Source: a virus
IMG/VR virus record: IMGVR_UViG_3300006925_000157
Coordinates: 1 to 23,441 of that record
Strand: one strand, 5' to 3'
Length of the DNA: 23,441 nucleotides
Shown: one piece after another, positions 2,412-23,375 of the stretch
Layout of the letters: each line of letters starts with the position of its first letter
Position numbering within the stretch: position 1 is the first letter of the stretch
Made by a program: the position numbers and the translations under genes
The notes under the pieces: generated by a model
The model's input: the letters and a program-made list of their open reading frames with translations, nothing else
Told to the model about the DNA's origin: nothing
Database searches by the model: none

Positions 2412-3197
2412 TTATTGAAATGGTAACTTAACATTTTCAGGAAAAGGAATCATTGAGCATCTACAATTTATAACATTTCCTGGGTCACTCCCTTCGCCTG
2501 GTCTTTTCATATATTCATTGCCGACATAAAAATCAGATTCAAAATCTACTGTTTGATTATTTGCAACTTGGTGAGCAGCTCTTGTATTTTTATCAAAAAA
2601 AGTTACCCATTGTTTTTTTAATTTTCTTCCTGCATATACTTGCAAAGCACTTTGTTCGACTCCATAACTTGCACCTCTTAATGATTCTGTCCTAACTAAT
2701 CTTAATGCCTGTACCCTTGAATATTGTCTAAATTTGCTTCTAAGTATTCTTGCTCTTTCATCTGCCCCTTTAGATACAAAATCAGGATCTCTGTATAATT
2801 TTTGTATTACACTCATTAAAGTTTTCTTTGCTGTGCCACTTACTAAAGTAACATTTTGAGCAGCCATTCTTCCAGCATAATGATTAAAAGCAGTTCTCCA
2901 TGTTTCTGTATAATCATTAGCAGTTTTTTTTTCTTCATATTTATCTGAATTTCTAAAATACCAAAATGCAAACCTCATGCAAGTATGATTATATATATTT
3001 AAATAAACTTTTTGGAAATCATCATATTTGAATAAAGTAATGTAATCTATATTTTCAGTTTTGATAAAAATATCGACTCCCTTAAAATATTCTTCTCTAT
3101 AGTATCTAGCAACTTGAGGAACTAATTTTTTTTCTGCTAATGATAATTGTTTATCATAATCATTCCTCCATTTATCTGTAATTTTTTTTGAAAGCAT
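2412..3197 (-). CDS. Phage head morphogenesis protein, MuF/SPP1 gp7-like
   Basis: This 261-residue protein belongs to the Mu F / SPP1 gp7 head morphogenesis group, minor head proteins that bind the portal inside the procapsid. The diagnostic part is C-terminal. LVRTESLRGASYGVEQ (about 167-182) is followed by WVTFFDKNTRAAHQVANN and then PGEGSDPGN-VINCRCSMIP, the Cys-Arg-Cys signature of the family, near the C-terminus. The N-terminal half is helical and lysine-rich. Its ATG overlaps the portal stop by one base (TAATG), so the two are probably translationally coupled. No toxin domain is fused to it, unlike many MuF proteins of Gram-positive prophages. Confidence 0.9.
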   Translation of the reverse strand: MLSKKITDKWRNDYDKQLSLAEKKLVPQVARYYREEYFKGVDIFIKTENIDYITLFKYDDFQKVYLNIYNHTCMRFAFWYFRNSDKYEEKKTANDYTETWRTAFNHYAGRMAAQNVTLVSGTAKKTLMSVIQKLYRDPDFVSKGADERARILRSKFRQYSRVQALRLVRTESLRGASYGVEQSALQVYAGRKLKKQWVTFFDKNTRAAHQVANNQTVDFESDFYVGNEYMKRPGEGSDPGNVINCRCSMIPFPENVKLPFQ

Positions 3198-5416
3198 TAA
3201 TCATTGTTTCTAATCTGTTCCATTTTTTTTATTGCCCAATTAACACCACTTGTGCCACCCCATAAATTCCATGCTACATAGCCATTGTCTTTCCATGGTG
3301 TGTCTTGAAACTTTGGATCTACTGTTGCATTTTTTCTATGTCTATTAAAAGCAGCCATTCTTCCAACTGTTTCTGCTGTGAGTTTTTCCCTTTTTGACAA
3401 ACTCGATGCTCTTTGCCATCCAACAGATGTGCCACCTTTGACTTCATCCCTTCCATATTTTTCTCTCCATTCAATCATTCTTTTAGCATTATTAGTAGCA
3501 CTTTGTGGATAATCAGAAAATCCTTCAGCTTTCTTCTCATTTTTTGAGCTTAATTTATGCCCAGATGGAAATAAATCTGTATCATGTTTACCACCTCTAA
3601 ATCGTTCATTTTTTAAAGCATAAAGAAAGCTATTGACTCTAGCATACGCCCATTGGTCAGCATTACTGACACTAGGTCGCACACTTGAGGGATTAGTGTT
3701 ATATGCACCAACACCCCTTTTAAATACCTTTTTTAAAGTACCTAAGGATGTTTTTTTATAACTAACTGAAACCGATTTATTGTGATCTTCTAATTTTTTT
3801 TTTAATCCTTTTTCTACACTACCAGAAACTTGCTTATTATTTCTTACAGCTTCTTCATATTCTTCATGAGTTTTAAAAGGCATATATATTGTTTGCCCAT
3901 CATAATCATGTGTGTGATATCCTGAACCCCCTAATTCTTTTGCACGATCTTCTGCTTCTTCCTGTGTTGTATAAGCATCTTCAAAACCTCTTATTTTATC
4001 TTTTTGTGTAATATAATTTGATAACATTTTTTCAATATCATCTTCTTCATCATCTATTTTTGAAGGTTGTGGATCAGGCATTTCTACATCTTCACCACCA
4101 ATAGGCAATAAATTTGCTGGTACATATATATCATTCATCGCATCATTTTCTTCTTCTGCATAACTCATTGCTGCTCTTTTTTCATTTGGAGTAATCCACC
4201 ATGCCTGCGACATTTGAGTAACTACTTTTTCCATATCCTCCTGTAATTCAGGAATAACAGAAAAATCAAAATCTAAATATATTTTATCACCAAATTTAGG
4301 TGCTAACCATCTATTTAACTCATCTCTAATTTTATATAATTCAGGCATTACTGCATGTTGATATAAAGCAGCTTTAGCACTCTTTTGATTGTTATATGTT
4401 GATGTTTCAGTATTATTTAATAATTGTACTGGTACATTAAATATATTACAAAGATCTTTCACAGATGCATTGTATTGCTCGATCAATGATAAATCTGATG
4501 CAGATAATCCAAAGTTAACCCATGATAATTTTTTTGGAGTTATTATGACATCACCAGCATTGTTACTAGATTGATAGTTAGATCTAAATTTATCTTTTAA
4601 TTGTTGAGCTTGAACTTCATTCAAATCCCCTTCTTCACTCATTAAAACACCTCTAGCCATTTGATTTTGTAAATATCGAACACCAGTTTGAGCAGCTTCA
4701 TTATTTGTTGTCATAGCTCTAAATCCTGCTTTCAATGGCGATTGCCCATATAAGTGTGAACCAGATCCATCATAATGTGGCTGAAAATCTTTTATATGAC
4801 ATATTTGATCTGCTGGTATATCTCTTTGTTCTGAATTATATTCAACTCTATATGATTTAACAGGTTCTAAAATACCACCACTTACAACCTCCATAATTTG
4901 CGAAGGCATTACATAAAGCTCTTTATACTTTCCAATATTATCACCACTTTCAGGTGCTATCCCATAGATATATCTGTTACCTGTTAGTTTACCAAAAGCA
5001 ACTAATTCACTAATCCAACTTGCATAGCTTTGTGCTGGATTAGGTCGATCTAATAATTCATGCAATTTAGTATGCTCTAATTCAACTAAAGCATGTTTCC
5101 TAATCATATTAGCTTTGTGCATTATTGTAGGATCTAACATCCCAGATGTCATAGCTTTATATCTTTTCAATTCATTATCATTTACTTTTTCATAAACACA
5201 CAAAGGCACACTAGATGCCGATTTTGCTATTAAATTAATGATTGAATAAACTGTTGCATTTTTTCTATAACCTTCATTAATATAATTTTCATCATTCTCA
5301 GGATTCCAAACAACTGATTGTCCTAGAAAATTATAAATAGCTTGGTTATATTCTTTCGCTGTCTGTTGTGAGTTTTTAACTATAAGATTTTTGAATCTGT
5401 CAAAGAATGATGCCAT
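3197..5416 (-). CDS. Portal protein (HK97 family) with a long C-terminal extension
   Basis: This 739-residue protein is far longer than a standard HK97-type portal (about 400-450). Residues 1 to about 445 are the portal: the N-terminal VYSIINLIAKSASSVPL segment, LLDRPNPAQSYASWISE, the GNRYIY turn, and SLIEQYNASVKDLCNIFNVPVQLL with ETSTYNNQ. An acidic linker follows (about 446-470). Residues 476-523 contain DAYTTQEEAEDRAKELG then GYHTHDYDG and MPFKTHEEY. Residues about 560-620 contain KRGVGAYNTNPSSVRPSV, then WAYARVNSFL and FRGGKHDTDLFPSGH. Residues 658-735 contain VKGGTSVGWQRASSLS, ETVGRMAAFNRHRK and AWNLWGGTSGVNWAIKK. I recognise the last two as recurrent accessory segments of phage structural proteins, but no function is known to me. 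The frame is intact throughout, so this is a genuine single ORF. Confidence 0.92.
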   Translation of the reverse strand: MASFFDRFKNLIVKNSQQTAKEYNQAIYNFLGQSVVWNPENDENYINEGYRKNATVYSIINLIAKSASSVPLCVYEKVNDNELKRYKAMTSGMLDPTIMHKANMIRKHALVELEHTKLHELLDRPNPAQSYASWISELVAFGKLTGNRYIYGIAPESGDNIGKYKELYVMPSQIMEVVSGGILEPVKSYRVEYNSEQRDIPADQICHIKDFQPHYDGSGSHLYGQSPLKAGFRAMTTNNEAAQTGVRYLQNQMARGVLMSEEGDLNEVQAQQLKDKFRSNYQSSNNAGDVIITPKKLSWVNFGLSASDLSLIEQYNASVKDLCNIFNVPVQLLNNTETSTYNNQKSAKAALYQHAVMPELYKIRDELNRWLAPKFGDKIYLDFDFSVIPELQEDMEKVVTQMSQAWWITPNEKRAAMSYAEEENDAMNDIYVPANLLPIGGEDVEMPDPQPSKIDDEEDDIEKMLSNYITQKDKIRGFEDAYTTQEEAEDRAKELGGSGYHTHDYDGQTIYMPFKTHEEYEEAVRNNKQVSGSVEKGLKKKLEDHNKSVSVSYKKTSLGTLKKVFKRGVGAYNTNPSSVRPSVSNADQWAYARVNSFLYALKNERFRGGKHDTDLFPSGHKLSSKNEKKAEGFSDYPQSATNNAKRMIEWREKYGRDEVKGGTSVGWQRASSLSKREKLTAETVGRMAAFNRHRKNATVDPKFQDTPWKDNGYVAWNLWGGTSGVNWAIKKMEQIRNND

Positions 5417-8312: not shown

Positions 8313-9032
8313 TTAAATATTTAATTGAATTGTAAATTGATTTGCTTTCCTTGAAACCTTTGAAATCATATTTGGATATAACCTAATAAGCTTTTTAATA
8401 CATGATTTTTCCATTTCGATTGTTCTATAATCTTTGCATCCTCCATCTTTCACCCAATGGTTATTTTCCCAATGCAAATATCTTATTCCTAATATACCCC
8501 CCTTATCTTTTATATGCCTTAAACATATTTCATAATCTTCTTTAACAGGAAAATTTTCATCAAACAGATATTCGCCATCATTTATAATACCCATTAATGA
8601 AGCAGTTACATACGTTCTGGTTAATATTGGTTTATATGGATAGGATCCCCTGGGTGAACTTTCTGTTCTAGTTCCCCATATTTTATAACCCATTTGCTCA
8701 GTTATGTCAAAATACTTTAAAAATTCTTCAATCCAAAATCCTTCTTCTTTAATCTGAATTTTCTTAGTTCTTCTTGTATCTAAAAAATTGTATCCCTGAT
8801 TTACTACATCATCATCAATCATGACTACCCTTTTTTCGCTAGTGTTTTTTAAAATCCAATTTCTTGTCTTAGTTATTCCCTGAACATCTTTCGGCACACA
8901 TTCTATGTTTTTAACTATTCCTTTATATTGATGGTATTCAGATTCAGGAATAAAAAAAACTGCTGATTCTTTTAATATTTTATCTGTGGAGGTTAAACCT
9001 GCCCTTCCTTTACTTGGTACTGCTATTAACAT
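8313..9032 (-). CDS. Glycosyltransferase, resembling TET-associated (DNA base) glycosyltransferases
   Basis: This 239-residue protein looks like a GT-A type glycosyltransferase. It starts with LIAVPSKGRAGLTS (2-15), the nucleotide-sugar binding strand and loop. GITKTRNWIL (52-61) follows, then VVMIDDDVV with the metal-binding Asp73-75, and later FPVKEDYEICLRH (161-173), an acidic pair as in acceptor-site motifs, and LHWENNHW. The VPSKGRAG / TRNWIL / DDD combination is what I associate with phage TET-associated glycosyltransferases, which put sugars on hydroxymethylated pyrimidines in DNA. That assignment is from memory of the family. No TET/JBP dioxygenase or base hydroxymethylase gene is visible here, so the acceptor is open; a protein or glycan acceptor is also possible. 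It overlaps the ParB-like gene by 23 bases. Confidence 0.68.
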   Translation of the reverse strand: MLIAVPSKGRAGLTSTDKILKESAVFFIPESEYHQYKGIVKNIECVPKDVQGITKTRNWILKNTSEKRVVMIDDDVVNQGYNFLDTRRTKKIQIKEEGFWIEEFLKYFDITEQMGYKIWGTRTESSPRGSYPYKPILTRTYVTASLMGIINDGEYLFDENFPVKEDYEICLRHIKDKGGILGIRYLHWENNHWVKDGGCKDYRTIEMEKSCIKKLIRLYPNMISKVSRKANQFTIQLNI

Positions 9033-9627
9033 ATCTTTTTTTAAAATCTGACCACCATATAACCCTTTCTATTGCTACTGAATCAAAAGCAGATCCCTTT
9101 TTATATCCACCCCTTCTGACCATCTTTAGCTTTAAAGTTTCTTTAAGATCCTCCCAATCTACTGAATTAGGTTCTGCCATTATTAAAATATATTCTTTTG
9201 GTGGTTCTAACTGAACTGATTGTGGTAATTCAATTTCATCATCATCTTCTAAATCATCAATCTGATCATCAATAGGAACATCTAAACCCCAATTTTCTAA
9301 AACCTCTAAATCATAATCATTTGCAATTATATCCCATTCCCATTCACCATAGCCAATGTTATCTTTTATTATAAATTCTTTTTTCTTTTCTTCACTCCAA
9401 TCATCAGCAATACTAATTGGAATTTCTTTCAATCCAGCAGCTTTACATGCTTTTAATCTCATATTTCCACCCAATACAATCATGTTTTCATCTACAACAA
9501 TAGGTCTTTTGTCTAACATTTCAGGAAATTCTTTTATAGAATTAACTAATTTTTTGAATTTACTTGCACTAATATATCGAGGATTATTAGTATTTTCTTT
9601 AACTAACTTAATATCAATTTTTTCCAT
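9010..9627 (-). CDS. ParB/sulfiredoxin-like domain protein
   Basis: Residues about 6-75 are a ParB N-terminal (ParB/Srx) fold: NNPRYISASKFKKLVNSI, then RPIVVDENMIVLGGNMRLKACKAAG (41-65, in pieces) with the loop GGNMR at the nucleotide-binding GxxR position. IKDNIGYGEWEWD then continues as in phage and mobile-element ParB proteins linked to methylases. Residues 118-140 are very acidic. The C-terminal part (about 145-205) is basic, with VRRGGYKKGSAFDSVAIERVI, and has no methylase motifs. ParB folds bind CTP or act as nucleases, kinases or guides for DNA-modifying enzymes. Its place between a methyltransferase and a glycosyltransferase suggests a role in DNA modification, not in plasmid partition, and no ParA is present. 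Confidence 0.8.
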   Translation of the reverse strand: MEKIDIKLVKENTNNPRYISASKFKKLVNSIKEFPEMLDKRPIVVDENMIVLGGNMRLKACKAAGLKEIPISIADDWSEEKKKEFIIKDNIGYGEWEWDIIANDYDLEVLENWGLDVPIDDQIDDLEDDDEIELPQSVQLEPPKEYILIMAEPNSVDWEDLKETLKLKMVRRGGYKKGSAFDSVAIERVIWWSDFKKRYVNSSTK

Positions 9628-9835
9628 TTACTTTGCTTTGCTCATACAAATATAAAATTAAATCCCAGATTTTGCTACTTGCAACACTTTGATCTTTATA
9701 TGTATGAGGTGATTTTGTAATGACTCCATTATCATTAACTTCAATATTACATTCTTTTCTTTGTTTTATAGGAACTATATAAACTTTAATTCCTTGATCC
9801 AAGCACCATGATTGAGCTTTTAAATATTTATTCAT
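9614..9835 (-). CDS. Small hypothetical protein (73 aa)
   Basis: I do not recognise this protein. It is basic, with two cysteines (residues 11 and 29), a likely helix at the start (YLKAQSWCLDQG), beta strands (VYIVPIKQR, CNIEVNDNGVITKS) and a C-terminal helix (SKIWDLILYLYEQSK). Its ATG follows the methyltransferase stop by one base and its end overlaps the ParB-like gene by 14 bases, so it belongs to the modification cluster by position. A TATATTTG sequence lies within its end, but without a -33 element at a usable distance. Confidence 0.65.
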   Translation of the reverse strand: MNKYLKAQSWCLDQGIKVYIVPIKQRKECNIEVNDNGVITKSPHTYKDQSVASSKIWDLILYLYEQSKVNGKN

Positions 9836-9836
9836 A

Positions 9837-10445
9837 TTAAAACATTCTTATTTGTGATTTGTGTTGCTCTATTCTTTTTATTGCAGCTTCATAATAATCT
9901 TTGTCAATTTCATAACCAGTTAAGTCATAACCTAAATTATGACAAGCTATTGCTATGCTTCCAGAACCTAAATGAGTATCTAATATTTTATCACCTTTTT
10001 TTGCATAGTTAATCAATAACCACTCATAAAGTTTTACAGGTTTTTGAGTAGGATGTATTCTTATTTTTTGTTGTGGAGCTTGAGAATACATTTTTGATAT
10101 TGTACCTAATCCATTAGATATAAAAGCCATTTCACACATACTCATATTAAAATTTTCTGAAATACTTAATTTTCTCCAAATTACAAATCCTTTATAGTTT
10201 GGCAAACTAAAATTGTTAGCACCCCATATTATTTGATTTTTACTCACTCTAAATAATTCATTAAAATATTGTTTATTTGGTTTATCATTCCAATCTTTTA
10301 ACCTACCTTTTTTTATTATATCTCTATTATATTTTGGCATATCATTTTCATTTGCATTTCTATAAGGAGGATCAACAATAGCCAAGTCAAACTGATTATC
10401 TGACATATCTTTCATAGCTTCTAAACAATCTTGATTGTATATCAT
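9837..10445 (-). CDS. DNA N6-adenine/N4-cytosine methyltransferase, class beta
   Basis: This 202-residue amino-methyltransferase uses S-adenosylmethionine. Motif IV is DPPY at 25-28. The SAM-binding motif comes late, as LDTHLGSGSIAIA (155-167), with THLGSG in place of the usual PFxGSG. HPTQKPVKL (131-139) precedes it and GYEIDKDYYEAA follows it. The order DPPY first, glycine motif last is that of the class beta enzymes (CcrM, HinfI group). The protein is short and has little room for a target-recognition domain, so specificity may be relaxed or supplied by a partner such as the ParB-like protein. No restriction endonuclease gene is next to it, so it is an orphan. It overlaps the upstream gene by four bases (ATGA). 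Confidence 0.92.
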   Translation of the reverse strand: MIYNQDCLEAMKDMSDNQFDLAIVDPPYRNANENDMPKYNRDIIKKGRLKDWNDKPNKQYFNELFRVSKNQIIWGANNFSLPNYKGFVIWRKLSISENFNMSMCEMAFISNGLGTISKMYSQAPQQKIRIHPTQKPVKLYEWLLINYAKKGDKILDTHLGSGSIAIACHNLGYDLTGYEIDKDYYEAAIKRIEQHKSQIRMF

Positions 10446-17332: not shown

Positions 17333-19306
17333 TTAAAATTTAATAACAAATGATGAGCTTAAATCATCATCTTGGTTAGGTACATGCATTATAACTGAAT
17401 AAGTATTTCTTTTGACATTATAAGATAAACTGTCTATATAACAACTTACTGGTTCTTGTAAAACACTAGTGCCAAAATTAACCCATATTTTATTATGTAA
17501 TCCTAAAGGATTATTATTATTATTATATAAATCCCCTTCATATCTAGATACAAAAGATCTATAATCATTTAACACTTGTTGAGTTGTAATTTTTTCTAAT
17601 GACTTTAAATAGTTTGTTTTGTCTCTCGATCTATAAAAATCACCATCTATTTTGCCATATTCTTCATTAGTTAATATTAAATCATCTGTTGTAATTAATC
17701 CGCTAAAATTTCCTGTTCTGCTTCTAACAAATTGTAATAAATCAAATTTTTCAAATATTTCCGACCTTTGACCACTTGAATTTATATAAACTTTATCAAA
17801 TATAATTGAATCCCAATGTGTACTTGTAAATCCTGATGTGCTACCAGTTTGGTATGGATCATATAAATAAAAATATAACCTCCAAGAATTATTAGGCAAA
17901 GAACTTATATTAAATGTATATGACTTCCATCTTCTATTATTAACAACTTCAACCTCATTGATTGTAGCTGTTGTTGTCCATGTATCATCAGCACCCCAAT
18001 ATCTAGTTGCTATTGGTGGATCTCCTGGTATTGTAAAAGCTACTGCTTTAACTTGCCATCTAAAACCTCTAGTTTGACCAGATGTAGAATTAAAAAAATT
18101 ATTAATTAATAATCTATAACCTATAAATTCCGAACCAAATTCATCTATGTAATTAGCTAATTCAGCCGTAACACCAGTTCCATTAGCTGATGTTTTTATA
18201 TTAGTTGATTTTAATGATCCATCACCTTGAAAACTAAATGTGTTATCGACACTACTATTTGTTAACGTCCATCCTGATGTTCCAAATTCAAAACCTGAAT
18301 TTCCTATAATATTAGTGCTAAAAAAACCAGCCATATCAACTTTCTGAGTAATTTTTTTTATAGGTCTTAAAAATTCTTTTGTTAAATTATTTCCAATAGG
18401 TAGTAAATTACTAGGTACACTATATAAAGCATTTACTGTACTTGTTGATTGATAAACTCCATCTGAATTATAAATATGATATTTAATGTCTTCATCATTA
18501 TTAGTTTGTAAGCTAGATGTTTCTGCTGCTCTTATTCCAGTTGGTAAAGAACCACCATTAGCAGTACTAGCAGAGCTGTCTTTTACTGATTGTTCTGAAT
18601 AACTTGAGTTATTTATTATATACCATCTTCCATAACTTTGAAAAATCCTAGAATTAGTGAATTTTAAAATTTGTTCTAAAACTTCTTTACAAGTTTTCGG
18701 ATCTACTCCATCTGTAAAAAAACTACTAGCACCACATGATGCCTGATCAAATACATTATATCCACTTATTGCACCATCTCTTTGTATATCATTTGATACA
18801 TATATATCAAAACCTAAATTTATATTTTCTAAAATTTCATGTATGTGAACCATAAAAACCCCAACAAGTTGAGTACCGCTTGAGGTAACTAATGGCTGAG
18901 TAAATCCATCTAAACTACCTAAACCATCATAACCCCTCAAGGTTATCGGAAATGGAGTATTAGTAATAGCTTCTTGAAATTGATCTACTAATAACCACCC
19001 CTCCCAATATGTTTGGTAATTATTACTAGCATCTTTATATGATATTTTAATTTTATATTCTCTTTCATCTGCTGTATAAAAATCATCATAATTTGTTGTA
19101 TCTGTAACAAAAAGATTTATTTGACAAGTAGATCCAATAATAGGATCGTAAAAATCATCATCTTGATCCCATGATATTTGTAAAGGATCACTAGTTCCAA
19201 TAAGATCTAAAACCGATCCAGTATAACCATCTTTAAGGATTTCAATTTTTTTACCTTTCAAATTATCATCTGAAAATTCTAATCTAAATTTAACCCCGTA
19301 TGCCAT
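17333..19306 (-). CDS. Tail-tip / hub-like structural protein with a carbohydrate-binding-like insert
   Basis: This 657-residue protein directly follows the tape measure gene (TAATG overlap), the place of distal tail and hub proteins. Residues 1-135 are a beta-rich domain with PLQISWDQDDDFYDPIIGS, YWEGWLLVDQFQEA and ITLRGYDGLGSLDG, which I know as a repeated pattern in Bacteroidota phages and prophages. CKEVLEQILKFTNSRIFQSYGRWYI (206-230, in pieces) resembles hub proteins. Residues about 334-505 (IGNSGFEFGTSGWTLTN ... WDSIIFDKVYI) have the look of a jelly-roll carbohydrate-binding module of the CBM4/9/22 kind. The C-terminus returns to a beta domain. It probably connects the tail to a receptor-binding device; no separate fibre gene is visible. 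Confidence 0.72.
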   Translation of the reverse strand: MAYGVKFRLEFSDDNLKGKKIEILKDGYTGSVLDLIGTSDPLQISWDQDDDFYDPIIGSTCQINLFVTDTTNYDDFYTADEREYKIKISYKDASNNYQTYWEGWLLVDQFQEAITNTPFPITLRGYDGLGSLDGFTQPLVTSSGTQLVGVFMVHIHEILENINLGFDIYVSNDIQRDGAISGYNVFDQASCGASSFFTDGVDPKTCKEVLEQILKFTNSRIFQSYGRWYIINNSSYSEQSVKDSSASTANGGSLPTGIRAAETSSLQTNNDEDIKYHIYNSDGVYQSTSTVNALYSVPSNLLPIGNNLTKEFLRPIKKITQKVDMAGFFSTNIIGNSGFEFGTSGWTLTNSSVDNTFSFQGDGSLKSTNIKTSANGTGVTAELANYIDEFGSEFIGYRLLINNFFNSTSGQTRGFRWQVKAVAFTIPGDPPIATRYWGADDTWTTTATINEVEVVNNRRWKSYTFNISSLPNNSWRLYFYLYDPYQTGSTSGFTSTHWDSIIFDKVYINSSGQRSEIFEKFDLLQFVRSRTGNFSGLITTDDLILTNEEYGKIDGDFYRSRDKTNYLKSLEKITTQQVLNDYRSFVSRYEGDLYNNNNNPLGLHNKIWVNFGTSVLQEPVSCYIDSLSYNVKRNTYSVIMHVPNQDDDLSSSFVIKF

Positions 19307-21651
19307 TATTTTATTCTGTTTCTATTACGATCTGCTCTTTGTAAAGCTACAACTAAATCTTGCCCTTTTAAAGTAAACTGCCCACCTACTTGAACTTTTG
19401 ATCCTCCACCGCTATCACCAATGAGATTTTTTAATTTATCCAATGGTGCTATAACTTCAGGATTTTGTCTAGCACCTGGGTATTCTCCAACAGTTGCCAA
19501 GGTAGGAGTAGAAACTATCCCACCCTTAGCCATTTCAATTCCTGAGAATGAAGTAAACAATGATTTAAAATCATCCATCCCTTTAAAAGCATCCTTGCCA
19601 CCAATACCTAAGCCACCAACTAATTTAGATAAAACAAATGCAGCAATAGCAGCTGCAATTAATTTTTTTATTAATCCAATTAATCCCTGTATTAAACTTT
19701 TAAAAACATTTTCTCCTTCCATCATACCCTCAAAAGCATTTAAAAACGCACTTTTAATTCCTTCACCGACTACCTCAGCACTATTAGCTGTCGCTTCTAA
19801 TAATTGTTTAAATGCACTTACTTTTTCGATTGTTTCTTCAATAGGATCTTTTTCTTCTTCACCACCACCAGATGCAACACTAGAATCACCACCACCAGAA
19901 TCACCACCACCTCCAGCAGTAGACAAACCAAAACCTCCCATGAAATCATCAAACAATCCTTTAACCTTGCCTTTTACAGATTCAGTAGCATTTGTTAATG
20001 AAGTATTTAATTGATCAACAGTTTTCTTTTCTAATCTAGATCCTAAAGCATCTTCAAATCCATCCGTAAATGCCTCTCCGATCTCATTTGCGCCATCTTT
20101 AGCAATTTGCTTACCATCTTCAAACCCTTGCTCTAAAATATCCCCAAATGAACCCCTAACACCTTTTTCTGAAAATTCTTTAATTAACTTCCATAAAGTT
20201 TTAAATGAATTTATAAAACCTTTGACAATAATTTTAATTCCAATAAATACTGATTTAAATACTGCACCTATTCCAAATATTGCTTTTCTTAAATTTAAAG
20301 ATGAATTATATAAATCAACAAATTGATTGTATAACCCAACTATAACAGGTGCTACTTCACCCCAATTCTTATATATTACATAAGCAATACCTACTAAAGC
20401 AGCAGTAATCAATGCTAATGGCGACATTAATGCTCCGACAATACTAACTAAACCACCGAATGCAGTTATTAATGTTGGTAATGCTAAAGCAATAACTCCT
20501 AATCCAGCAATTAATTTTTGAGTTCCTGAATCTAAATTTGTAAAAGCACTAAATATATTTTTAATCCCATTTAACAATCCAGTTAATACTGGTAACAACT
20601 GATTTAATAAAACAGTTCCAACCTCTTTAAATGATTCCTTCGCAATATTTAATGATTTTTTTAATTTAAAAGAAGCAGATTTAGAAGTCACATCAAATGC
20701 TTTTGCTGTAGATCCCTGTGCCTTAGCTAATTCTTCAAATATTTTTCTTGCATCCTCTGCACCTGCACCAGTTAAATCTAACACACCCTTTAATGCTCTT
20801 ATATTTGGATAAACAGCAGCAGCAGCATCTGCATTTCCATCAATACCAGTTTTTAATTTATTTAATACACTAATTAAACCACCTTCTTCAGCTAATTCTG
20901 CTCTTAAATCACTAGCATTTAATCCCATATCAGCAAATGCAGTTTGTGCAGCAGGAGTTGTTTTAGTTAATCCCATTAAAATTGCATTTAACTGAGTAGC
21001 TCCACTTGCCGCATCTGTACCAGTTCTAGACATCGCAGCCATCGCAGCACCAACTTCATCAAAACTAACTCCCAAAGCAGAAGCTGTTGGAATTACAGAT
21101 CCCATTGAACCTGCTAATTCTGATGCTTCTAATTTACCCTGTTTTACAGCAGCAACTAAAATATCTGTTGCATGTTCTGCATTTAAATTTTCCGAACCAT
21201 AAGCATTCATAGCAGATGTCGCTAAATCAGCAACAGTTGCCACATCCCCCAAACCTGATGCAGATGCTTTTGAAGCAGCTTCTAAAACCGATATAGCTTC
21301 AGCACCTTCCAAACCAGCCGAAGCAATAAAAAACATTGCCTCACTTGTTTTAGCTGAAGATATGCCAGTTTCTTTTGCCATATTTTTAGCAGCATCTGAA
21401 AACTCTTGTAATGCTTGTCCTGATGTACCTACTAATGCTTCAATCTGGGTAATGTTTTTATCAAAATCCATAGCCATCTTAATAGCTGAACCTCCAGCCA
21501 ATGCACCAATAGCACTAAACTTTTGTAATGATGCACCAACTCCACTAATTTTTTTTCCAAATGATTGTACTTTAGCACTAGCAGAAGTAAGTGCTTTATT
21601 TAGACCTGCGGCATTTCCTGTTATATAATACCTTAATTTGTTATCTGCCAT
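19306..21651 (-). CDS. Tail tape measure protein, TP901 core type
   Basis: This 781-residue protein sets tail length and helps DNA entry. Residues about 60-320 are the TP901 core: AMDFDKNITQIEALVG, AKETGISSAKTSEAMFFIASAG, AYGSENLNAEHATDIL, ELAGSMGSVIPTASALGVSF, MSRTGTDAASGATQLNAIL. Hydrophobic segments lie at about 380-428 and 650-682, probable membrane-inserting parts. A Gly/Ser stretch (577-597) separates helical regions. The C-terminus has KGGIVSTPTLATVGEYPG and PEVIAPLDKLKNLIG, common at the ends of these proteins. With the known scale of about 1.5 angstrom per residue, the tail would be roughly 115 nm, typical for a siphovirus. It follows the frameshifted chaperone gene, as expected. Confidence 0.95.
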   Translation of the reverse strand: MADNKLRYYITGNAAGLNKALTSASAKVQSFGKKISGVGASLQKFSAIGALAGGSAIKMAMDFDKNITQIEALVGTSGQALQEFSDAAKNMAKETGISSAKTSEAMFFIASAGLEGAEAISVLEAASKASASGLGDVATVADLATSAMNAYGSENLNAEHATDILVAAVKQGKLEASELAGSMGSVIPTASALGVSFDEVGAAMAAMSRTGTDAASGATQLNAILMGLTKTTPAAQTAFADMGLNASDLRAELAEEGGLISVLNKLKTGIDGNADAAAAVYPNIRALKGVLDLTGAGAEDARKIFEELAKAQGSTAKAFDVTSKSASFKLKKSLNIAKESFKEVGTVLLNQLLPVLTGLLNGIKNIFSAFTNLDSGTQKLIAGLGVIALALPTLITAFGGLVSIVGALMSPLALITAALVGIAYVIYKNWGEVAPVIVGLYNQFVDLYNSSLNLRKAIFGIGAVFKSVFIGIKIIVKGFINSFKTLWKLIKEFSEKGVRGSFGDILEQGFEDGKQIAKDGANEIGEAFTDGFEDALGSRLEKKTVDQLNTSLTNATESVKGKVKGLFDDFMGGFGLSTAGGGGDSGGGDSSVASGGGEEEKDPIEETIEKVSAFKQLLEATANSAEVVGEGIKSAFLNAFEGMMEGENVFKSLIQGLIGLIKKLIAAAIAAFVLSKLVGGLGIGGKDAFKGMDDFKSLFTSFSGIEMAKGGIVSTPTLATVGEYPGARQNPEVIAPLDKLKNLIGDSGGGSKVQVGGQFTLKGQDLVVALQRADRNRNRIK

Positions 21652-21680: not shown

Positions 21681-22393
21681 TTAATCTATGTCTTTAAACT
21701 TCATTTTGCTAACTCGATCTCTAAATGCTTGAAATTCTTCTGGTGTAGATTTTGCTTTGCCCCTTTCTAAATAAACATCTTGTGGTAAACTAAATAATTT
21801 GTCTGGTGGAATCATTTGTGATTTTTTACTACAATTTACATTGTAAATCATTGAAGAAATAAATCTTGTTCTTTCCCACTCTAGATTCTGTTTTATCAAA
21901 TATGATTCTCCTAATAAATGATTTTCTTTCCATGTAAAACTCCAAAATTCATTTGGATTAATCCCAACTTGACCAATATAAAAATCAATTAAAGAATCCC
22001 AAGTCAGTTGGGTAGTTACTTTCCCTTCTTAGTCGTTTGCTTTACATTACGATTTAATCCAGCATTTAGATCATTCCCTAAAATACGTGATTCCATCATA
22101 GCTTTTACAACTTCATCTAATTTATTAGCATCAAAATCTTCTAACCACATTCCAACACTAAATTCATTGTAATCAATTTCATTATTGTTTTCCTGATCAT
22201 TCGCTAAAAGTGCTGAATAAATTAATGATCTAATCATTTTTATTGAAACTCCCTTTTCAAAAATACTTGCAATTTCATCTAACGAAATTCCCAAAAGATC
22301 TGTAAAGTTTGCCCAAAAATTCATGCTAAAGTGCATGACTCTATTTTTACCACCTAATTTAATAGTGTAGTAACCTCTTTTCTTGTTTGCCAT
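21681..22393 (-). CDS. Tail assembly chaperone, frameshift fusion product (gpG-T like), 237 aa
   Basis: If ribosomes slip -1 at GGGAAAG (22019-22025), reading leaves the first frame just before its TAA and continues KVTTQLTWDSLIDFYIGQVG to the stop at 21681. The product is 237 residues. The second frame has no stop over its full length. It has no suitable start except a TTG at 21899 that would cut the conserved part (NPNEFWSFTWKENHL). The T-like extension (about 112 residues) should bind the tape measure protein while the G-like part binds tail tube subunits. In lambda, gpG and gpGT are made in a fixed ratio by the same heptamer. The gene order tube, G/GT, tape measure is the same here. Confidence 0.88.
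21998..22025 (-). promoter_or_regulatory. Programmed -1 ribosomal frameshift signal
   Basis: The minus strand has the slippery heptamer G GGA AAG (22019-22025) in the reading phase X XXY YYZ of the first frame, one codon before its TAA. Six bases later comes CCCAA-CTGAC-TTGGG (21998-22012), a perfect five-pair stem with a five-base loop at the usual 5-8 base distance. The heptamer is the one used in the lambda tail chaperone genes. Confidence 0.88.
22016..22393 (-). CDS. Tail assembly chaperone, unshifted product (gpG-like), 125 aa
   Basis: This is the main product of the chaperone locus. It starts ANKKRGYYTIKLGGKNRVMHF in pieces and continues with NFWANFTDLLGISLDEIASIFEKG and LIYSALLANDQENNNEIDYNEFSVGMWLEDF in pieces. 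The pattern is that of tail assembly chaperones of gp13/gpG type: an N-terminal beta part, then helices with an acidic middle. It lies between the tail tube genes and the tape measure gene. It ends VKQTTKKGK just after the slip site. The hairpin at 22408-22430 lies upstream of its start and may lower its expression relative to the tube genes. Confidence 0.85.
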   Translation of the reverse strand: MANKKRGYYTIKLGGKNRVMHFSMNFWANFTDLLGISLDEIASIFEKGVSIKMIRSLIYSALLANDQENNNEIDYNEFSVGMWLEDFDANKLDEVVKAMMESRILGNDLNAGLNRNVKQTTKKGK

Positions 22394-22450: not shown

Positions 22451-22873
22451 TTAGTTTGTAGCTTTAGATATAGCTCCTGTTACAGTGATTGATCCACTGT
22501 ATGTTACAGGTGATTCCATTTCTGCGGACATTTCTACTGAATTTAAAAAACCTGCACCTGAATAAACTTCATCGCCTGAAACACTTGTTCCAAACTCCCA
22601 GTATACTTTAGTTCTAGCAATTAAATAATCAGCAGCTTCAACTGCATTATTAGAATCATCGTAAGCCACCAAACCTTCAAACGAAAGTTCACCTGTTCTA
22701 GTACCAGCAATAACTTCATTAAAACCACTTGAATCTTTTGTAGTAGCATCTGGTAAATCAGCTGACAAGCTTAAACTTGCACTTGTTGAATGACCAACAG
22801 CAACTTCAGATCCATCAGTTGAATGAAACTTTAAAATTAAATTTGTTCCGTTAAATACTCCAGTTGTAGGCAT
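22451..22873 (-). CDS. Tail tube protein, second copy (140 aa)
   Basis: This protein resembles the TP901-1-type major tail (tube) proteins. It is a beta-rich 140-residue protein with VAVGHSTSASLSLSADLPDATTKDSSGFNEVIAGTRTGELSFEGL (about 25-69, in pieces) and a C-terminal VEMSAEMESPVTYSGSITVTGAI that fits the tube fold. It is paralogous to the upstream gene: LPDATTKDS, G, EVIA, R and GE occur at matching positions, and both have GEGF or GAGF and SVE/SVD near the end. It is followed by a hairpin and then the chaperone genes. Of the two copies, this shorter one is closest to a standard tube subunit and is probably the main one. Confidence 0.88.
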   Translation of the reverse strand: MPTTGVFNGTNLILKFHSTDGSEVAVGHSTSASLSLSADLPDATTKDSSGFNEVIAGTRTGELSFEGLVAYDDSNNAVEAADYLIARTKVYWEFGTSVSGDEVYSGAGFLNSVEMSAEMESPVTYSGSITVTGAISKATN

Positions 22874-22916: not shown

Positions 22917-23375
22917 TTATGTATTTTCCCAATTACTTGCAATATCTTCCCAGAAATCAAAAATATTTTCCCACGTTCTACTATCGCCAGCAGTTATGAT
23001 ATTTGTTAATTGAATTTCTACATCAAAAGAAGTAGCATTATTAAACTCTGCTGTTTCATCTACACTAGAAATGAAACCTTCTCCTCTTATTACAAAATCA
23101 GAATTTCCATCTTGTTTAAAATAAAAAACCTGTTTGGTTCTTAATATAACAGCATCTGCAAATTCCTTAAAATTTAAACTATCATTATAAGCTGTTAAAC
23201 CACTTACTCTTGCTTCACCACCTCTTGCACATGCTATAACCTCTTTCCATCCATAACTGTCTTTTGTTGTAGCATCTGGTAGATCTATTCTTAAGCTTAT
23301 AGATGTATTTTTAGAATGACCAATTACAGTTTCATCCTTAAATAGCAAAAAGCTGGATGAATTAATTATTGGCAT
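22917..23375 (-). CDS. Tail tube protein, first copy with C-terminal extension (152 aa)
   Basis: This is a paralogue of the next gene. IGHSKNTSISLRIDLPDATTKDSYGWKEVIACARGGEARVSGLTAYND (about 18-65, in pieces) lines up with the second copy without gaps in the core. The C-terminal part diverges and adds a tryptophan-rich acidic tail (TWENIFDFWEDIASNWENT, about 134-152) absent from the other copy. Two related tube-type proteins side by side could mean a tube made of two subunits, a tail terminator-like or initiating subunit, or one decorated form. The start at 23375 comes three bases after the stop of the partial gene at the right edge. Confidence 0.85.
   Translation of the reverse strand: MPIINSSSFLLFKDETVIGHSKNTSISLRIDLPDATTKDSYGWKEVIACARGGEARVSGLTAYNDSLNFKEFADAVILRTKQVFYFKQDGNSDFVIRGEGFISSVDETAEFNNATSFDVEIQLTNIITAGDSRTWENIFDFWEDIASNWENT

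Follow-up and report, generated by a model that had tools for sequence, protein, structure and literature searches.

A predicted lambda-type −1 frameshift in the tail assembly chaperone genes of an uncultured phage family, with a covarying hairpin downstream of the slip site

A programmed lambda-type −1 ribosomal frameshift very probably joins the two halves of a tail assembly chaperone in the viral DNA analysed here (probability roughly 0.94, judged from comparative sequence analysis). We refer to the whole stretch of 23,441 nucleotides as the window, and to the two overlapping frames as G and T. The result carries the tail-chaperone frameshift known from lambda over to probable Bacteroidota phages of a large uncultured group, and the comparative evidence for it is very strong. 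A rarer gain is the detection, by covariation within coding sequence, of a hairpin that is the likely stimulator of the shift.

Anatomy of the locus

The locus lies on the minus strand, which the earlier note on this DNA had not given; all features of the locus below are on that strand. The G frame (22016–22393) encodes a 125-aa predicted tail assembly chaperone, the short, gpG-like product, assigned from its open reading frame, membership of PHROG 2115, a fold match, and gene position. Its 3′ end reads AAG GGA AAG TAA, with AAG as the final sense codon, and the slip heptamer G_GGA_AAG (22025–22019) stands in the exact X_XXY_YYZ phase directly before the stop, as had been claimed. A −1-frame TAA (22031–22029), shortly before the heptamer, confines any shift to GAAGGGAAAG. 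The T frame (22028–21681) opens after this TAA and, in agreement with the earlier note, stays open through the second domain to its stop at 21683–21681; the predicted GT fusion is 237 aa long (125 + 112). G and T overlap before the G stop by 10 nt in the window and by 7 nt in two relatives (L064 and L066), where the overlap consists of the seven slip bases alone. The slip site is therefore the only place where a ribosome could cross.

Directly upstream is a tail tube gene (22451–22873; Phage_tail_2, PF06199, 1.1e-16), and directly downstream is a tape measure gene (19306–21651; PF10145, 9.9e-29; PHROG 1533, 3e-69). The gene order is thus tail tube, G/T, tape measure, and the G and T frames overlap as in lambda-type G/GT loci.

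Three other parts of the window deserve mention. The adjacent genes at 22451–22873 and 22917–23375 are both tail-tube-like (PF06199 / PHROG 1407), which suggests that the tail tube gene was duplicated. A TET-associated glycosyltransferase-like gene (8316–10445; PF20691, 1.7e-11) lies near ParB_N-like and N6/N4 DNA methylase genes, possibly forming a DNA base modification cluster. The portal gene (3197–5416, 739 aa) has a C-terminal extension that matches DUF3721 and DUF5824.

The G and T proteins

All 19 family members examined place G in PHROG 2115 (‘tail protein’) and T in PHROG 16333, for which no function is given. The model of G (pLDDT 74) has a fold like those of predicted viral proteins that carry the annotation tail assembly chaperone, and matches the G of Cellulophaga phage phi18:2; a BFVD match with that annotation has E 1.1e-4 and TM 0.67–0.70, such annotations being predictions themselves. 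Neither solved structures, searched by fold, nor isolate phages, searched for relatives, yielded a match to G. For T the structure prediction is poor (pLDDT 67.6). Against Phage_TAC_6 (PF09550), the window’s T scores 13.9 bits, below the curated cut-off of 23.4, and of the 19 members 10 have matches at E 0.1 or better (best E 0.0015). By the Pfam cut-off T is not a member of this family, though it may still work like one. By analogy, the pair seems likely to function as lambda G and T do.

Conservation and turnover of the slip site

The GGGAAAG heptamer alone is no rarity. The window contains five copies where 2.97 are expected, and five or more occur in 19 of 100 shuffles; what lies beyond chance is the phase, place, and conservation of the copy at the end of G. 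We collected relatives by IMG/VR searches with both halves and with an alignment, plus one species-genome scan, and obtained 170 distinct loci with both halves, including three MAG contigs. The second frame is in the −1 register in 170 of 170, and every locus has an in-phase X_XXY_YYZ heptamer inside the overlap, whereas the other two phases contain one in only 22 and 19 loci. Each locus was typed by its last in-phase heptamer, with GGGAAA preferred over CCCAAA and CCCAAA over A-runs. GGGAAAG is found in 103 loci and CCCAAAG in 55; ten loci have A-runs (AAAAAAA in six, AAAAAAG in three, AAAAAAC in one) and two have other GGGAAA types (GGGAAAA and GGGAAAC, one each). Loss of the heptamer with both frames conserved had been named as an outcome that would speak against frameshifting; wherever GGGAAAG is lost, another canonical in-phase heptamer takes its place.

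The wobble position supports the same site. The base before GGA is always G (100/100), though the codon that it ends may encode K, E, S, A, V, Q, P or T, and the same residues elsewhere in the gene family have a third-base G in 8–28% of cases. The CCCAAAG lineages often have AAAAAAC just upstream as well, but three loci (L193, L218 and L162) keep CCCAAAG alone of the two heptamers, which points to CCCAAAG rather than AAAAAAC as the probable slip site in these lineages. Several loci (e.g., L014, L036 and L018) contain a tandem in-phase A_AAA_AAG then G_GGA_AAG in ACAAAAAAGGGAAAG, and in sister loci of this group a −1-frame TAA disables the upstream A_AAA_AAG.

The earlier note had presented GGGAAAG as standing where A-rich slip sites would be expected. 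GGGAAAG is indeed the main choice in the window’s family, but it is not a rule for AT-rich hosts: A-rich sites occur in the minority lineages and in four distant isolates (A8–A9). Within this one protein family the heptamer has changed among GGGAAAG, CCCAAAG, and A-runs with the frameshift retained, a natural series that permits a direct test of how the G:GT ratio depends on slip site and hairpin.

A covarying hairpin six bases after the slip site

A perfect CCCAA/TTGGG stem-loop had been proposed to follow the heptamer. It is present in the window, six bases after the heptamer (22012–21998; CCCAA(CTGAC)TTGGG, −5.2 kcal/mol), but the conserved structure is a long-range helix, and hence a longer hairpin than the one first named. 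The two hairpins share their 5′ arm. In the long stem, CCCAACT (22012–22006), also six bases after the heptamer, pairs with AGTTGGG (21969–21963), which lies within the GQVG codons of T. These seven conserved pairs close a loop of ∼30–36 nt with variable inner pairing, and the window adds GAC/GTC with one bulged base, for ten pairs. The longer fold in the window, where the 5′ arm joins a site ∼45 bases further on, has a predicted energy of −16.0 kcal/mol.

Several tests single out the long stem. All seven of its pairs form in each of the 67 distinct main-clade rows of the alignment, whereas the local hairpin forms in full in 15. RNAalifold on the 67 main-clade rows returns exactly the 7-bp stem; on the full 69-row alignment it finds no stem, because a five-sequence subclade without the stem is included. 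In a scan of all helices in 130 bases, the long stem ranks first with four covarying pairs and 64 cells, followed by a helix with one pair and six cells. With the wider 69-row set, the stem exceeds all 500 shuffles in both cells paired and covariation score, as well as every slid version of itself. Its paired fraction lies above position-specific synonymous nulls (0.757 versus 0.685, sd 0.010). The outermost pair is G-C in 35 rows and C-G in 30. On a tree built without the region, swaps between C-G and G-C number about eight per side and always occur together; five of the eight paired changes fall on well-supported branches, and recombination of a short segment could inflate their count. This pair couples the middle base of a Ser/Thr codon with a silent Gly wobble base, and protein function is thus a poor account of the link.

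On the basis of pair counts, slid controls, and synonymous recoding, we rejected the local CCCAA/TTGGG hairpin as the conserved element. Of 69 rows, 51 break its outer pair, no covariation is seen, and shuffled pairings do equally well or better, leaving this hairpin as an alternative weak pairing with no sign of selection.

Folding stability relative to synonymous recoding follows a similar pattern. From +2 to +59 after the heptamer, the mean z is −2.51 in the main clade, −2.03 in the CCCAAAG clade, and −1.77 in the A-run set, whereas the first 31 bases (+2 to +33) of the main clade alone are no better than synonymous recodings (z −0.17). In one small subclade (L133, L135, L136, L140 and L141) the main stem is missing and a local structure takes its place (z −2.05 in +2 to +33); the hairpin is therefore not universal. 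We also sought a covarying helix near the slip site in the CCCAAAG clade and none emerged, despite the excess stability there. The leading helix of that clade (L155–L214), TGCTTG/CAAGCA, begins 27 bases beyond the slip site, a greater distance than is usual for a stimulator.

One may ask whether any structure is needed. The lambda site has been described without a required downstream structure, and the short hairpin is perfect in the window, so the slip site might suffice alone or with that hairpin, the longer pairing being a by-product of coding constraint. We consider this unlikely, given that the short hairpin shows neither covariation nor excess stability across the family, while the long stem surpasses the synonymous nulls and ties an amino acid-determining base to a silent one. 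Because the 5′ arm has two possible downstream partners in the window, a two-state switch is also conceivable, in which pairing with the local TTGGG or the distant AGTTGGG would set the G:GT ratio, triggered, for instance, by ribosomes translating the loop or by a bound tail protein. We regard such a switch as very unlikely compared with a fixed stimulator. The usual spacing between heptamer and stimulatory stem is 5–9 nt (PMC7618472), and a conserved, covarying stem at six nt falls within it. The long hairpin is accordingly placed as expected for a stimulatory stem-loop, and is likely to stimulate the −1 shift.

The T register and other routes to a fusion

In the preferred reading, T is reached by shifting from G. 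Separate synthesis of T, whether initiated at a start codon within T or by ribosomes that reinitiate past the G stop, might be suggested by the distant Cellulophaga phages phi18:1 and phi10:1, in which T is in the +1/−2 register and ATG codons lie near its beginning. In the window’s family, however, 109 of 110 distinct loci have no ATG, GTG, or TTG in the part of the T frame that precedes the core, and the register is constant across the 170 loci, a constancy that separate genes do not need. We found no relatives that carry the two frames as separate genes with their own starts, an arrangement that had been named beforehand as contrary evidence, and we consider independent synthesis extremely unlikely. 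Transcriptional slippage, rather than ribosomal frameshifting, could in principle yield the fusion where polymerase slippage is possible, as at the A7–A9 junction runs of some minority lineages and distant isolates; for the window, where the longest run in GGGAAAG is three and the spacing to the covarying hairpin suits a ribosomal signal, it is barely credible. A sequencing error or broken gene, which a single-base difference joining both frames might otherwise imply, is effectively refuted, since 170 distinct loci, drawn from many samples, share the register and have an in-phase heptamer.

The earlier proposal of a lambda-type −1 frameshift in a tail chaperone is thus strongly supported: register and heptamer agree in 170 of 170 loci, T lacks its own start, and the locus shares with lambda-type G/GT both the heptamer phase and the conservation of slip site and register.

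Proposed mechanism

From this arrangement we infer the slipping itself, its rate, its stimulation by the hairpin, and the roles of G and GT. Most ribosomes would end at the TAA and release the 125-aa G protein. A minority would pause at the hairpin that starts six bases downstream, and tRNA-Gly and tRNA-Lys on G_GGA_AAG would slip back by one base. Reading would then continue in the −1 frame, producing the 237-aa GT fusion. If the two products act as they do in lambda, G would form a coat on the tape measure protein, and GT, through its T part, would bring in tail tube subunits. In a system of the lambda type, tail assembly would be expected to require both products and the virion to contain neither.

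Host

The virus is a marine phage, likely with a Bacteroidota host. Its terminase is closest to those of Bacteroides phages (39%), and its primase-helicase is closest to that of phage vB_RanS_PJN03, whose host we take from the phage name to be Riemerella, and to those of Tenacibaculum and Flavobacterium phages. The earlier assignment to a Bacteroidota phage is supported by these affinities, as a likely rather than a proven host. The labels of the three MAG contigs (Gammaproteobacteria, Rhodobiaceae and Woesearchaeota) were considered as a host clue and set aside; they disagree and look like binning noise.

Comparison with known systems

Among distantly related isolates, Flavobacterium phage 11b and Cellulophaga phages phi18:1, phi10:1 and phi39:1 resemble the window in that G and T-like frames adjoin before the tape measure gene, and the T of phi18:1 is recognisably related to that of the window. 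They differ in having A8–A9 runs at the junction and in register: T is −1 in 11b, where the run is A9, and +1/−2 in the three Cellulophaga phages. The +1/−2 T-like frames with A8–A9 are found in phi39:1 (L246 1147–1160), where the T frame opens inside the A-run, phi10:1 (L244 3341–3363), and phi18:1 (L154 2962–3014). These isolates may use polymerase slippage or a −2/+1 ribosomal shift. In phi10:1 (L244 2989–3363) G is unannotated, and in 11b (L245 1168–1521) T is annotated from an internal ATG, omitting the conserved start. The GT product is absent from the annotations of these isolates, which fits the earlier remark that the second product is usually missed. An open-access literature search found no paper on tail-chaperone frameshifting in Bacteroides or Flavobacterium phages, though some may exist.

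The closest functional parallel is lambda gpG/gpGT, reportedly worked out by Levin (1993) and by Xu, Hendrix and Duda (2004). The window shares with lambda the heptamer G_GGA_AAG, the direction of the shift, the gene order, a slip near the end of G, and a T without its own start. It differs in that the family searches found no sequence similarity to lambda G or T, and in two features of the window, namely a slip site that abuts the G stop and a covarying hairpin six bases on. The lambda tail assembly chaperone frameshift is reviewed in PMC5009743, as are the stimulatory stem-loops of bacterial dnaX and IS911, the latter with a branched structure. As in those systems, an in-phase slip heptamer is followed within a few bases by a stem; here, by contrast, seven conserved pairs close a loop of tens of nucleotides, and stimulation is predicted. 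Finally, tail genes are known to use various canonical heptamers for the same purpose (PMC5009743), whereas here the turnover among GGGAAAG, CCCAAAG, and A-runs takes place within one protein family of ∼50–70% protein identity.
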